Assembly (NCBI RefSeq): GCF_016858125.1
Contig: NZ_CP064781.1
Location: 496,001 to 560,000 of the forward strand
Reading direction: 5' to 3'
Length of the DNA: 64,000 bases
From: Azospira restricta
Lineage (GTDB): Bacteria > Pseudomonadota > Gammaproteobacteria > Burkholderiales > Rhodocyclaceae
The notes below the pieces were generated by a model that saw nothing but the letters and a program-made list of their open reading frames with translations, did no database searches and was not told the DNA's origin. Shown here piece by piece: positions 30,711 through 36,036 of the stretch. Made by a program: the position numbers and the translations under genes. Position 1 is the stretch's first letter, and the number at the start of each line of letters is the position of its first letter.

Positions 30711-31287
30711 ACCCGCAGAATTCAATGATTTGCGGCACGAAATCGGGAAAGCGGGTGAAGCTGTGGTCGCCGCCGGGCAGCACCGTCTGCCGGCAGCCGG
30801 CGTAGCGGCTGACCGCCGCCCGATAGTCGAGCAGCTCGTCGCCCTCCTCGACCAGCAGCCAGTAGCGTTCCGGCGTGATCCGCGGCACCTCCAGCGCGCG
30901 CAGCGTGGCGATGTGCGCCGCGGTGAATTCGAAGACTTCGCCGCTGTAGAGATTGGTCTGCGGCCCGACGTAGGCCTCCAGCGACAGCGGCGCGACCACC
31001 GCCGGGTTGATCAGCACCGCCGGCAAACCATATTTTTCGGCCAGCCAGGTCGCGTAATAGCCGCCGAGCGAACTGCCGAGCAGCGTGCACGCGGGATGCT
31101 CGGCGAGGATCGCCTCGGCCTGCGCAATGGCGACGGCCGGGTCGTGCGACAGCGCCGGGCAGTGGAAGCGGTCGGCGAGGCCGCGCTCGGCCAGCGCCGC
31201 GCCGAGCAGGCGGGCCTTCCAGGACTGCGGGGAGGAGCGGAAGCCGTGCAGGTAGAGCAGCGACGGCGAACCGGCAGCGAGGCTCAA
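30706..31287 (-). CDS. yqiA: YqiA-like alpha/beta hydrolase esterase
   Basis: A 193-residue serine hydrolase of the YqiA/UPF0227 type. It has LLYLHGFRSSPQSWKARLL near the start, the nucleophile elbow LLGSSLGGYYATWLAEKYG and the catalytic histidine in GGDHSFTRF. The natural substrate is unknown; E. coli YqiA cleaves short acyl esters. The start is TTG, overlapping the stop of the upstream repressor (TTGA), consistent with coupled translation. Confidence 0.88.
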   Translation of the reverse strand: MSLAAGSPSLLYLHGFRSSPQSWKARLLGAALAERGLADRFHCPALSHDPAVAIAQAEAILAEHPACTLLGSSLGGYYATWLAEKYGLPAVLINPAVVAPLSLEAYVGPQTNLYSGEVFEFTAAHIATLRALEVPRITPERYWLLVEEGDELLDYRAAVSRYAGCRQTVLPGGDHSFTRFPDFVPQIIEFCGL

Positions 31288-31976
31288 CGTCCGACCAGCA
31301 GGCGCCCGACGACGTGGCCGACGACCTCGATGCCGCTCGCTGCGAGCGCCTCCTCGGACAGCGTCTCGCTGCCGAAGCGGTTGTTGTCGCAGATCAGGCG
31401 CAGCCCGTCGACGGTGCCGCGCTGGATGCGGCGGACGACCAATGCGCCGTGCACGCGCAGTACATAGACGCCGTTGCCGACGAGGCGGTTGACGCGCGGG
31501 TCGTAGAAGACGACGTCGCCCGGGCGCAGGTAGGGGTCCATGTCGTCGGAGGCCATCCGCATCGCCGTCACGCCGCGCGGCAGGCCGACCTCGCGCAGCG
31601 CCTCCGGCAGCATATACAGCGAATGCGCCTCGTCCGCGTCGCTGCCGTGGATGTCGATCACCGTATAGCGCTCGTCGATGGCGTGCGCGCCGGTGCTCTG
31701 CGCGCCGACCACCAGCTGCTCGACGGTGGTGTTGAGGGTTTCCGCGATCTCCGGCAGCCGCGCCAGCTCGGGCACGCCTTCGCCGCGCAGCCAGTTGGCC
31801 GCGGTGTTCTGGCTGACGCCGAACAGCTCGGCTACCGCCGTCACCCGGCCGTAGCCGACCGGAATCGCCCCGCGACGATCCAGCGCCGCATTCAGGTTCT
31901 CCGCGAACTGCTTGCGGAACGCCTTCTGCCGCTGCGCCTTGTCGTCCTGATTGTCGAGTTGGATGACCGTATTCAT
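31284..31976 (-). CDS. XRE-family repressor with degenerate S24/LexA-like domain
   Basis: A 230-residue DNA-binding protein: a helix-turn-helix (about residues 40-70, AELFGVSQNTAANWLRGEG) and a C-terminal LexA/CI-type domain. In self-cleaving members the catalytic Ser is in a G-[DE]-S-M motif and the Lys in V-K-R. Here the equivalent segments are MASDDMDPYLRPGD and LVVRRIQR, so Asp and Arg appear to replace the dyad and self-cleavage is unlikely. It is the first gene of a six-gene operon and may regulate itself. Host regulator rather than phage remnant, because no phage genes are near. Confidence 0.82.
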   Translation of the reverse strand: MNTVIQLDNQDDKAQRQKAFRKQFAENLNAALDRRGAIPVGYGRVTAVAELFGVSQNTAANWLRGEGVPELARLPEIAETLNTTVEQLVVGAQSTGAHAIDERYTVIDIHGSDADEAHSLYMLPEALREVGLPRGVTAMRMASDDMDPYLRPGDVVFYDPRVNRLVGNGVYVLRVHGALVVRRIQRGTVDGLRLICDNNRFGSETLSEEALAASGIEVVGHVVGRLLVGR

Positions 31977-31982
31977 GCGCCG

Positions 31983-31988
31983 ATTATA
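31983..31988 (-). promoter_or_regulatory. TATAAT six bases before the repressor ATG
   Basis: A perfect -10 hexamer on the minus strand ends six bases before the ATG at 31976, so the expected start of transcription falls on the ATG. This would give a leaderless mRNA, as for phage lambda cI from PRM. There is no Shine-Dalgarno between the two. A -35 is not evident. Confidence 0.5.
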
Positions 31989-32184
31989 GAACGCCTTTTT
32001 GCCGCGGCGGCCAAGGGAAGAAAACCAACGTGATACGAATTCCCTGAACAACCAGGGAGATGCAGAAACCGGCAAGGCTGGCGGCCGCGGCGCTCCAGCC
32101 CGCGCCCACATGCCCCCCGCCCCGGAACACCCTCCCGCCAGCCGCGGTCTGAGCTATAAAGAATGGTGTAAGAGGAGATTGACC

Positions 32185-32496
32185 ATGATCGACGCACCGG
32201 TTGTTTCCATCCACATCCCGCCGCCGCTGCGCCCGCTGGTGGAAGGTCACGAGGAAGTTACCGTCAGCGGCGAGACGGTCGGTGAGGCGCTGCATGCGCT
32301 GGAGCATGCTTACCCGGTGCTGACCGGCAAGGTGCTCGGCAACAATGGGCAGTTGCAGCCCTCGGTCGACGTCTACCTCGGGCCGACCAGCATCCGCGCG
32401 CTGAACGGCGCGGAGACGCCGATCACCACCGAGGAGACGATCAGCATCGTGCAGCGCACGACGCGGGTGGTCGACGGCGAAATCAGCGTTGGCTGA
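32185..32496 (+). CDS. MoaD/ThiS-family ubiquitin-like protein
   Basis: A 103-residue beta-grasp protein resembling MoaD, ThiS or small archaeal modifier proteins that carry sulfur as a C-terminal thiocarboxylate. The fold signature IPPPLRPLVEGHEEV, TVGEALHALEHAYP and RALNGAETPI is seen. The C terminus ends EISVG with a single glycine rather than the usual GG, so activation by an E1-like enzyme is uncertain. AGAGGAG lies 8-9 bases before the ATG and TATAAA at 32155-32160 is a possible -10. Its 3' end overlaps the convergent ubiT by 14 bases. Confidence 0.75.
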   Translation: MIDAPVVSIHIPPPLRPLVEGHEEVTVSGETVGEALHALEHAYPVLTGKVLGNNGQLQPSVDVYLGPTSIRALNGAETPITTEETISIVQRTTRVVDGEISVG

Positions 32497-32968
32497 TGAA
32501 GGGCAGGCTGCGCGGCAGTTGCGGCAGGCGTGGCTTCAGCTGCGAGAGGTCGATCGCGTCGAGCATGTTCTTGACGATCAGGCCTAATTCGGTGTCGCCC
32601 TCGATCGACAGTTCGCGGTTGAAGAACAGCGTGTCCGGGTCTTCCTGCCGCGTCGCCACCTGCAGGAAGGCGGAGAGGTTGGCGCGGAAGGCCAGGTCCG
32701 GCGTGCCGGCCGGGCGGAACAGCGGGCGGAAGAAGCCGCCGCGGTAGGTGAAGGCGGCCTGGCCGCCGGTGTCGTAGACCTGCACGACGAAGGTCTTGCC
32801 TTCCATCGCCGCCAGGCTGTCTTCGGGCAACAGGCCCAGCTTCGCCGCGGCGTTGAGCGCGGTGGTCAGCGCCACCGCGTGCGGCCATTGCGGCAGCTTC
32901 TCGCCGATGCGGGCGATGAAGCCCGGCAGCTGGAATTTCGGAATCGTGAATCCCTGGTCCATGCTCAT
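32483..32968 (-). CDS. ubiT: UbiT SCP2-domain protein for O2-independent ubiquinone synthesis
   Basis: A 161-residue lipid-binding protein with an SCP2 fold. UbiT supplies or holds ubiquinone intermediates in the anaerobic pathway with UbiU and UbiV. Recognisable parts are a hydrophobic N-terminal helix ([23 protein letters not shown]) cut here to its conserved core, and the [36 protein letters not shown] stretch, given in part as [20 protein letters not shown]. The ATG at 32968 overlaps the ubiV stop (ATGA), so ubiU, ubiV and ubiT form one operon. Confidence 0.9.
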
Positions 32969-33870
32969 GCTCCTGTGAGTGCGGCGACGGCCTGCGTATG
33001 CCGCTGCGCGATGCCGGCGTCGCCGAACCAGTAGCCGTCGACGAGGCCTTCCGGGTTCCACGCGGCATTGGCCGCCGCCGGTTCGCCGCGGCGGGCGGCG
33101 TCGAAGGCGGCGACGATCTCGGCAGTATAGGCCGGCTGCGGGCTGACGCGGATGATGTCGATGCCCAGCTCGCGCAGCGTCGGCACTTCGGCGAGCAGGT
33201 TGTAGCTCTGCGCCGACATCGTCTGGATGCCGTTGATGGCGAGGAAGCTCTGCCCCTCGCGCGTCTTCAGCGTCATCCCTTCCGGGTGGTCGAGGCACTT
33301 GAACTGGCAGTCGTCCTTGTTCAGGTTGTAGTGGCGCGCGGTGAAGCAGCGCGCCGAGAAGGCGAGCGGCAGCTTGCCGAAGACGAAGACCTCGGTCTCG
33401 ACGCCTTCCGGACGCGAGCGGTGCAGCGTCTCGACCAGCTTGCGGTCGGCTTCCAGCGGCGGCACCCAGCGCTTCAGTCCGTAGCGCGCGTAGGTGGCCA
33501 GCGTCGCCTCGTTGTAGATGTTGAGGTGCGGGCCGGCGACGAAGGGCAGCTTGCCCTGCACCAGGTTCACCGCGCCGAGGTCGTTGGCCTCGATCTTGCA
33601 GCCCGCCTCGTCGATCAGCCGGCGCATCGCCTTCAGGTCGCTCTCCGATTCGAGCAGCGCCTGCGCCGAGACGACGACTTCCTTGCCGGCGTCGGTCAGG
33701 TCGCGGGCGAGGCCGATCCAGTCGGCGGTGCGCAGCTGCTGCCGGCGCGAGCAGACGACCTCGCCGACATAGACGATGTCGATCGCCTCGTTCTGCGCCA
33801 TCTCGGCGTAGAACTCCATGACTTCGGCCTTCGGCCAGAAATAGAGCAGGGGGCCCAGCGCGAGCTTCAT
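32965..33870 (-). CDS. ubiV: UbiV, O2-independent ubiquinone hydroxylation protein
   Basis: A U32 peptidase-family protein that forms a complex with UbiU, binds a 4Fe-4S cluster and hydroxylates ubiquinone precursors without oxygen, using prephenate as oxygen donor in E. coli. Cluster-type cysteines are visible in [19 protein letters not shown] and DDCQFKC. ATG at 33870 gives the usual [13 protein letters not shown] start, with GGATGAAG just upstream; in-frame ATG at 33879 or TTG at 33885 would add three or five residues. It lies 27 bases after ubiU and overlaps ubiT by four. Confidence 0.93.
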
Positions 33871-33897: not shown

Positions 33898-34911
33898 TCA
33901 CCGCCACGGGCGGTTGTAGGCGCCCAGCGTCGCCTGGTTGCCTTCCGAGACCTTGGCCAGCTCGGCCTGCCAGGTCGGCTTGACGTGGTAGCGCTCGCTC
34001 TCGTTGGCGAAGGCGTCGAGCGCGGCCCTGAGCGTGCGCGTCACCTGCGTCACATAGGCCGGGCTGCGCTGGCGCCCCTCGACCTTGATCGCCTTGACGC
34101 CGATCTTGATGATCTCGGGCAGGATCTCGAGCACGTTCAGGCTGGTCGGCTCCTCGAGCGCGTAGTAGGTTTCCCCCTGCACCTCGAAGCGGCCCTTGCA
34201 CAGCGTCGGGTAGCCAGCCGGCTCGTCGTCGGCGAAGCGGTCGATGAGGATGCCGTTCAAGCGCGTGTCCATCTGCCCCGGCTTCTTGTCCCATTTCACG
34301 TATTTCGCCGGCGAGCAGGCGCCGACGGTGTTCGGCGATTCGCCGGTGGCGTACGAGGACAGCCAGCAGCGGCCCTCGTTCATCACGCACAGGCTGCCGA
34401 AGCCGAAGACCTCGATCTCGACCGGCGTGTTTTTGATCACGTGCTCGACCTGCGCCAGCGTCAGCACGCGCGGCAGCACCGCGCGCAGCACGCCGAATTC
34501 GCGGTGGGCGAAGTTGATCGCCTCGTAGCTGGTCGCCGAGCCCTGTACCGACAGGTGCAGGCGCTGCTGCGGGTGGCGGTTGCGCGCGTAGTCGAGCAGG
34601 CCGACGTCGGCGAGGATGATCGCGTCCACTCCGAGGCCGACGGCGCCGTCGACCGCCGCCCGCCAGTCGGCGACGCGACCTGGCTGCGGGAAGGTGTTGA
34701 TCGCCATCAGCACCTCGCAGCCGCGGTCGTGCGCATAGCGGACGCCATCGGCCATGGTCTTCGCGTCGAAGTTGAGGCCGGCGAAGTTGCGGGCGTTGGT
34801 GTCGTTCTTGTAGCCGAGGTAGACGGCGTCGGCGCCGTTGTCGACGGCGGCCTTCAGCGCCGGCAGGCTGCCGGCGGGGCAAACGAGGTCCGGCAGGGCG
34901 GAACGGTCCAT
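33898..34911 (-). CDS. ubiU: UbiU, O2-independent ubiquinone hydroxylation protein
   Basis: Partner of UbiV, with its own 4Fe-4S cluster. The 337-residue U32-family protein has the N-terminal DLVCPAGSLPALKAAVDNGA motif, ADAVYLGYKN, and the cysteine pattern LCVMNEGRCWLSSY, GACSPAKY and LCKGRF expected for cluster ligation. It is the first gene of ubiUVT, placed behind an FNR-type box, which fits a pathway needed only without oxygen, for example during nitrate respiration. Confidence 0.95.
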   Translation of the reverse strand: MDRSALPDLVCPAGSLPALKAAVDNGADAVYLGYKNDTNARNFAGLNFDAKTMADGVRYAHDRGCEVLMAINTFPQPGRVADWRAAVDGAVGLGVDAIILADVGLLDYARNRHPQQRLHLSVQGSATSYEAINFAHREFGVLRAVLPRVLTLAQVEHVIKNTPVEIEVFGFGSLCVMNEGRCWLSSYATGESPNTVGACSPAKYVKWDKKPGQMDTRLNGILIDRFADDEPAGYPTLCKGRFEVQGETYYALEEPTSLNVLEILPEIIKIGVKAIKVEGRQRSPAYVTQVTRTLRAALDAFANESERYHVKPTWQAELAKVSEGNQATLGAYNRPWR

Positions 34912-34943
34912 GGTTTCTGCGGAGGAAATACGGGAAGCTGGGC

Positions 34944-34949
34944 AGTCTA
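34944..34949 (-). promoter_or_regulatory. -10 element of the ubiUVT promoter
   Basis: TAGACT on the minus strand matches the TAnnnT core. Transcription from about 34937 would place the FNR box centre (34978.5) at about -41.5, the normal class II activator position. Confidence 0.55.
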
Positions 34950-34971
34950 CCGCCGCCCCGGCAAGCGCCCC

Positions 34972-34985
34972 TTGATGTGGGTCAA
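34972..34985 (-). promoter_or_regulatory. FNR/Anr-type binding site upstream of ubiU
   Basis: TTGATGTGGGTCAA matches the FNR consensus TTGAT-N4-ATCAA at nine of ten defined positions. It lies 61 bases before the ubiU start in the 222-base gap between ubiU and a divergent regulator gene. FNR control of ubiUV is known in E. coli. Confidence 0.75.
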
Positions 34986-35031
34986 TAGCGCTTTCGGCGC
35001 ATGAGTGAGCTCAATCAAGGACAAGTGCATA

Positions 35032-35037
35032 TATACT
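35032..35037 (+). promoter_or_regulatory. possible -10 for the REC-ATPase regulator gene
   Basis: TATACT in an AT-rich patch lies 97 bases before the gene start at 35134. No clear -35 is seen. Confidence 0.35.
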
Positions 35038-35133
35038 GCGTTTTCGCCGCCCCGGTGTCCGCGCAGCCGACCGCCGCCACCGCACAACAACAGGAACGGC
35101 GCCGCGACCACAACCCGAGGAGACAACCGCGCC

Positions 35134-36036
35134 ATGGCCCCGACCCGCATCCTGACCGTAGACGACGAGCCGCTGAACCTGGCGATCATCGAGGAATACC
35201 TGTCGGAAGAGACCGACTACCGGCTGGACAGCGCCGGCGACGGCGAAGCTGCCTGGCAGGCGCTGACAGGCGCCAACGCGCCGTACGACCTGGTCATCCT
35301 CGACCGCATCATGCCGGCGCTCGACGGCCTCGAGCTGCTGCGGCGGATGAAGGGCGACCCGCGCTTCGCCGGGATTCCGGTGATCATGCAGACCGCGGCC
35401 TCGACGCCGGAACAGGTACGCGAAGGGCTGGCCGCCGGCGCCTACTACTACCTGACCAAGCCCTACGAACCGGAGACGCTGTGCGCGGTGGTGCGCGCGG
35501 CGCTCGGCGACCAGCGCGCGCTGCGCAGCGCGGTGAACCGCGCCGGCAGCATGGAGCGGGCGTTCCAGCAGCTGTCGTCGATCGAGTTCAGCTTCCGCAC
35601 GCTGGACGAGGCGCGCACGCTCGCCGAGTTCCTCGCCGGCCTGTGCCCGAACCCGCAGGCCGCGCTGTTCGGCATCAGCGAGCTGATGGTGAACGCCATC
35701 GAGCACGGCAACCTCGGCATCAGCTATCGCGAGAAGACGCTGCTGCTGATGGAGAACGACTGGCACGCGGAAATCGGCCGCCGCCTGGAACTGCCGCAGT
35801 TCCGCGCGCGCGTCGCGCACGTGCGCCTGGAGCCGCAGCCCGACTGCCTGCGCTTCACGATCAGCGACGCCGGCGCCGGCTTCGACTGGCAGCGCTACCT
35901 GGACTTCGATCCGACGCGGATCTTCGACCCGAATGGCCGCGGCATCGCGATGGCGCAGCGCACCAGCTTCGCCAGCATCGAGTATCCGGGCTGCGGCAAC
36001 GTCGTCGTCGCCACGGTCAGCCGCAAGCCGTCCTGA
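35134..36036 (+). CDS. response regulator fused to an RsbW-like ATPase domain
   Basis: A 300-residue protein: a receiver domain (about 1-125; acid pocket LTVDDE, phosphoacceptor D57 in VILDRIMP, lysine in YLTKPYE) joined to a HATPase_c domain of the anti-sigma/RsbW type (about 160-300; N box ELMVNAIEHGN, G1-like SDAGAGFDW, GRGIAMAQ). No DNA-binding domain is present, so output is probably through protein binding or phosphotransfer. GAGGAGA lies about 13 bases before the ATG. The 129 bases upstream are in frame but look non-coding. It ends 6 bases before the convergent SCO gene. Confidence 0.87.
   Translation: MAPTRILTVDDEPLNLAIIEEYLSEETDYRLDSAGDGEAAWQALTGANAPYDLVILDRIMPALDGLELLRRMKGDPRFAGIPVIMQTAASTPEQVREGLAAGAYYYLTKPYEPETLCAVVRAALGDQRALRSAVNRAGSMERAFQQLSSIEFSFRTLDEARTLAEFLAGLCPNPQAALFGISELMVNAIEHGNLGISYREKTLLLMENDWHAEIGRRLELPQFRARVAHVRLEPQPDCLRFTISDAGAGFDWQRYLDFDPTRIFDPNGRGIAMAQRTSFASIEYPGCGNVVVATVSRKPS

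Follow-up and report, generated by a model that had tools for sequence, protein, structure and literature searches.

We identify a candidate FNR box in front of ubiU in Azospira restricta which, with a probability of about 0.87, would act as operator in a class II promoter that is activated by FNR and drives ubiU, ubiV, and ubiT as one unit. The box occupies positions 34972 to 34985 on the minus strand of the window, by which we mean the whole 64,000-nucleotide stretch of DNA analyzed, and reads TTGACCCACATCAA on this strand and TTGATGTGGGTCAA on the plus strand. An earlier note on this DNA had described a fit to FNR at nine of ten positions, and this is borne out, as TTGATGTGGGTCAA has one mismatch to TTGATNNNNATCAA. 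The site is close to the TTGAT-N4-ATCAA sequence expected at class II FNR promoters. It is the single match without mismatch to TTGAYNNNNRTCAA in the whole window, where a mean of 0.03 is expected (100 shuffles, three of which held one). Allowing up to two mismatches to the strict pattern gave 20 matches in the window compared with 4.2 expected, so that weak matches by themselves say little. The 3.98-Mb genome, a single contig, holds 31 perfect TTGAYNNNNRTCAA sites and none of the reversed control pattern.

The ubiUVT genes, their predicted promoter, and Fnr

All three genes lie on the minus strand in the order ubiU, ubiV, ubiT, and their products score above the NCBIfam cut-offs for the UbiU, UbiV, and UbiT proteins of the O2-independent ubiquinone pathway. 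The gene ubiU (33898 to 34911) encodes the O2-independent ubiquinone hydroxylation protein UbiU (NF047963, 553.3 bits against a cut-off of 440). The open reading frame of ubiV extends from 33885, from where it was scanned (NF047965, 386.1 bits against 275), and its probable start is the ATG at 33870, which gives a gene at 32965 to 33870. The start of ubiT (32483 to 32974), encoding an SCP2-domain accessory factor (NF047962, 127.3 bits against 46.9; PF02036), overlaps the end of ubiV. Downstream of the end of ubiT, also on the minus strand, there is a gene for a protein with HTH_3 and Peptidase_S24 domains (31284 to 32111), which we take to be CI/LexA-like. Two genes elsewhere in the genome exceed the TIGR01988 cut-off for Ubi-hydroxylases; together with UbiUVT, these two O2-dependent hydroxylases indicate that the genome carries both ubiquinone routes. 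UbiB serves both routes. The gene ubiB, to which the earlier note had pointed, is indeed present in the window, but it is a weak argument since UbiB is unspecific for the O2-dependent route, of which the TIGR01988 hydroxylases are the better sign.

On the minus strand, in the direction of ubiU, the box (34985 to 34972) is followed after 22 nucleotides by the predicted -10 hexamer TAGACT (34949 to 34944) and then by the ubiU ATG at 34911, which is 67 bp downstream of the box center. When TAGACT is set at -12 to -7, the predicted transcription start falls at 34937 and the box center at -41.5. The placement near -41.5 proposed earlier would follow from the 22-nucleotide gap, relative to a start predicted from the hexamer. 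In a class II promoter, the site of the activator takes the place of the -35 element.

The genome encodes a canonical Fnr (NF008365, 249.7 bits against a cut-off of 228). A solved FNR-type regulator aligns with it over residues 19 to 242, with the N-terminal cysteine motif and the central cysteine in register, and the cluster-binding cysteines of the A. restricta protein (CSNCNLHELC and the central Cys) match those of the solved FNR. As oxygen falls, Fnr would retain its [4Fe-4S] cluster and dimerize, and the dimer would bind the box centered near -41.5 and contact RNA polymerase positioned on the TAGACT element. The resulting UbiU, UbiV, and UbiT would sustain ubiquinone synthesis under conditions in which the O2-dependent hydroxylases cannot work.

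A good part of the 30 further perfect TTGAYNNNNRTCAA boxes lie near respiratory and denitrification genes, according to a reading of the surroundings of all 30 and a family scan of 20 of 30 candidate proteins. Genes next to boxes include nirJ (above cut-off), the cbb3 oxidase gene ccoN, two nirB-like genes, and one nosZ; the nirB-like and nosZ matches are strong yet below the curated cut-off, as the fetched stretch ends within the gene. Other boxes adjoin genes for a cytochrome b and two hemerythrins, for three proteins that match cytochrome c (two only weakly), and for one protein each that is indolepyruvate oxidoreductase-like, ferredoxin-like, or of the CtaA type. One box is centered 41 bp upstream of the fnr ATG and 62 bp upstream of a divergent radical SAM gene, presumably hemN. 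Boxes without a plain anaerobic link adjoin genes for a GntR regulator, an HDOD protein, a sulfate permease, a zinc hydrolase, and an OmpW-like protein, and for some of the 30 boxes no adjoining gene was named. Three perfect FNR boxes lie within 130 bp at C1:1034068-1034195 (positions 1269 to 1396 of locus L113), in the interval between a nirB-like gene and its divergent neighbor, and one of the three is identical to the 14-mer of the window. The start of this nirB-like gene is at least 210 bp from its three boxes, and the divergent gene is closer to them.

Conservation of the box and co-occurrence with Fnr

We compared the DNA upstream of ubiU in the best 80 of 120 UbiU relatives. Among these, the nearest UbiU relatives of the window are from metagenome-assembled genomes (MAGs) of Rhodocyclaceae, and Azonexus, Dechloromonas, Propionivibrio, and Accumulibacter are more distant. 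Scoring covered 78 promoters, those of the window and 77 relatives; L055, L076, and L077 have no ATG in reach, and the sites of L076 and L077 are degenerate as judged by eye. Within the range tested, a box with at most one mismatch is present in 71 of the 78 promoters, with its center 53 to 83 bp upstream of the ATG, whereas a control stretch of equal width 90 bp further upstream holds one in none of the 78. The earlier note had suggested checking whether relatives carry the box ahead of their own ubiU, and this check is passed. The seven promoters without such a box are those of L051, L057, L065, L078, L079, L081, and L082.

Spacing was counted in the 74 promoters with no more than two box mismatches (60 with none, 11 with one, and three with two), which all differ from one another in the 90 nucleotides preceding the ATG. 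When spacers of 10 to 31 nucleotides were tested, a TANACT hexamer was found downstream of the box in 72 of the 74, at 21 nucleotides in 65 promoters and at 22 nucleotides in seven (those of the window and of L003 to L008); none of the other spacers gave a TANACT. It is missing in L080 and L082. On the opposite side of the box, TANACT occurs four times among the 74, and the bases upstream of the box show little conservation. A box followed at 21 or 22 nucleotides by TANACT, with little conserved upstream of it, is what a class II promoter looks like, so that conservation and spacing together provide strong evolutionary support for a predicted class II FNR promoter.

For the occurrence of Fnr we searched 48 genomes, that of the window and 47 of the 80 relatives picked to cover the box types (L034 is not among them). 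Fnr scored above cut-off in 31 genomes; best scores in the other 17 were at most 50.9 bits. The perfect ubiU box is present in 30 of the 31 genomes with Fnr and in none of the 17 without it, an association that rests largely on one Fnr-negative clade, several members of which are MAGs. The 31st Fnr-positive genome is that of L076, outside the scoring by script, which has a ubiU site with two mismatches by eye. The earlier reading of an oxygen-controlled switch is thus supported by the box in relatives, its fixed spacing, and a canonical Fnr; the oxygen control itself would follow by analogy with Escherichia coli and Pseudomonas.

Other targets and other regulators

Perfect sites occur about once per 128 kb (31 per 3.98 Mb), so that lone matches do arise, but an expectation of 0.03 in the window and a box conserved at fixed distance from TANACT over 74 promoters make a functionless chance match so improbable that we discard it. 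It is also very improbable that the box serves the divergent neighbor (35134 to 36036, plus strand), a response regulator gene encoding a receiver domain (PF00072, above cut-off) and a HATPase-like domain (PF13581, just below). The box does lie between ubiU and this gene, and toward the latter a conserved GCATATATACTG element is present in the window (35027 to 35038) and in L003 to L006, at a variable distance from the FNR box. A tblastn search (E value 1e-10) of the DNA fetched for the 80 relative loci (best 80 of 120) detected the divergent gene in 28, and its side was compared, as direct neighbor, in the window and 22 of the 28; no GCATATATACTG element was seen in the rows listed for the remaining 18 relatives compared. 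From the box to TATACT on the divergent side there are 46, 46, 26, 26, and 39 nucleotides in the window, L006, L005, L004, and L003, respectively, whereas the distance to TANACT on the ubiU side is 22 nucleotides in all five. This variation speaks against activation toward the divergent gene, and the box is kept in relatives whose fetched DNA gave no divergent gene. We therefore reject the divergent gene, with its unfixed spacing, as a candidate; the box probably does not control it.

The genome contains nine PF13545 matches to CRP/FNR-family proteins in all, and other members of this family, one of them Dnr-like, may read the same sequence. We consider it unlikely, if less so than the preceding alternatives, that the box is read mainly by such a protein and that the operon answers nitric oxide or denitrification and not directly oxygen. 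The candidate, encoded at C1:3773156-3773851 and 82 percent identical to the query, is one we take to be Dnr-like, and Dnr-like kin carry an E-x-x-S-R recognition helix like that of FNR. Further, in Fnr-negative genomes a perfect TTGAYNNNNRTCAA box lies within 480 bp upstream of ccoN in 9 of 12 full loci (L167 to L175, L177, L178, and L181), and ten such genomes contain 11 to 31 TTGAYNNNNRTCAA sites each (reversed control, 2 to 11). Canonical sites kept without Fnr suggest that some different protein can probably use them in place of canonical Fnr. At ubiU, however, the perfect box follows canonical Fnr across the genomes searched, and 10 of the 14 genomes of one Fnr-negative clade, where the ubiU box has changed, also have matches to the Dnr-like protein at 65 percent identity or more (two of these truncated). 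We accordingly favor Fnr as the main predicted reader of the box.

Propionivibrio and the published rule

Fourteen of the 17 Fnr-negative genomes, mostly Propionivibrio, form one fork of the UbiU tree with support 91/98 (L046, L049 to L054, L056, L057, L061, and L063 to L066). Since these are one clade, there may have been a single event, and they are not 14 independent pieces of evidence. The remaining three (L078, L079, and L082) have no good box. The ubiU boxes of the clade are of the TTGATNNNNRTCAT type or decayed, at unchanged promoter spacing: 11 of 14 are TTGAT-N4-RTCAT, L051 and L057 carry one change more, and L065, from Propionivibrio dicarboxylicus, has lost the left half-box but kept the right half, 21 nucleotides, and TATACT. 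The title of the paper describing P. dicarboxylicus gives the species as strictly anaerobic.

In two Fnr-positive genomes, TTGAYNNNNRTCAA occurs 31 and 23 times (reversed control, 0 and 5), so that the counts given above show no plain depletion of canonical sites in genomes without Fnr. Because of this, and because ccoN boxes are kept, some FNR-type protein probably still works in the clade; a total loss of FNR-type control is unsupported, given the ccoN loci that keep a perfect box. A single replacement regulator was not found among the CRP/FNR proteins examined, none of which is present in all 14 genomes. One FNR-like protein of the CRP/FNR family, with N-terminal cysteines but distinct from Fnr (L155, L151, and L187 to L191), has matches at 67 percent identity or more in five of the 14 genomes, and in two of these five it is encoded within about 1.1 kb of ccoN. 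Counts of TTGATNNNNATCAT on both strands, uncorrected for composition, ranged from 10 to 21 in the ten genomes without Fnr and were 9 and 10 in the two with it; as these ranges touch, we set aside an excess of TTGATNNNNATCAT as an argument. Loss of the O2-dependent hydroxylases in the clade is rejected, with 11 genomes (G006 to G016) above cut-off.

Tentatively, we propose that Fnr was lost in Propionivibrio, that an outer base of the ubiU operator changed to give TTGATNNNNATCAT with the 21 nucleotides to TATACT frozen, and that control passed to another CRP/FNR-family protein; in P. dicarboxylicus the operator would have decayed, leaving the promoter free of oxygen control. This sequence of events is possible but far from assured. 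Within the set of papers searched, none joined Propionivibrio, ubiquinone, and a regulator, and of two that matched Propionivibrio and FNR, one names fnr solely in a cited title. The Fnr-less clade with an altered ubiU box may be new.

The box of the window itself follows a general rule already known: according to the text of PMC11707229, 1362 of 1566 ubiTUV sets across Pseudomonadota have FNR sites of the same kind, placed ahead of ubiU, of ubiT, or of both. That text relates site position to the start codon; we give instead the 21 or 22 nucleotides to TANACT, in a mostly Rhodocyclales set. According to the account of the ubiUV promoter in PMC10470549, the E. coli promoter likewise has an Fnr box in front of ubiU, there with a mapped start, and Fnr activates it through site F1, 36 nucleotides upstream of that start. 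The right half-site in E. coli (GGCAG) is poorer than that of the window, and E. coli ubiT stands apart from ubiUV and has an Fnr site of its own as well as a second promoter (PMC10470549), whereas here ubiT ends the ubiUVT run. In Pseudomonas aeruginosa, ubiUVT is transcribed at low oxygen under the FNR homolog Anr, with additional translational control by the small RNA SicX, as described in the part of PMC10247376 on these genes.

In conclusion, the reading of an FNR box upstream of ubiUVT, made from sequence alone, is confirmed as sound. We provide the promoter geometry (box, 21 or 22 nucleotides, TANACT) for genes of O2-independent ubiquinone synthesis in this mostly Rhodocyclales set. In the Fnr-less Propionivibrio clade, the published rule can be put to a natural test, namely of the fate of an operator once its regulator is lost.
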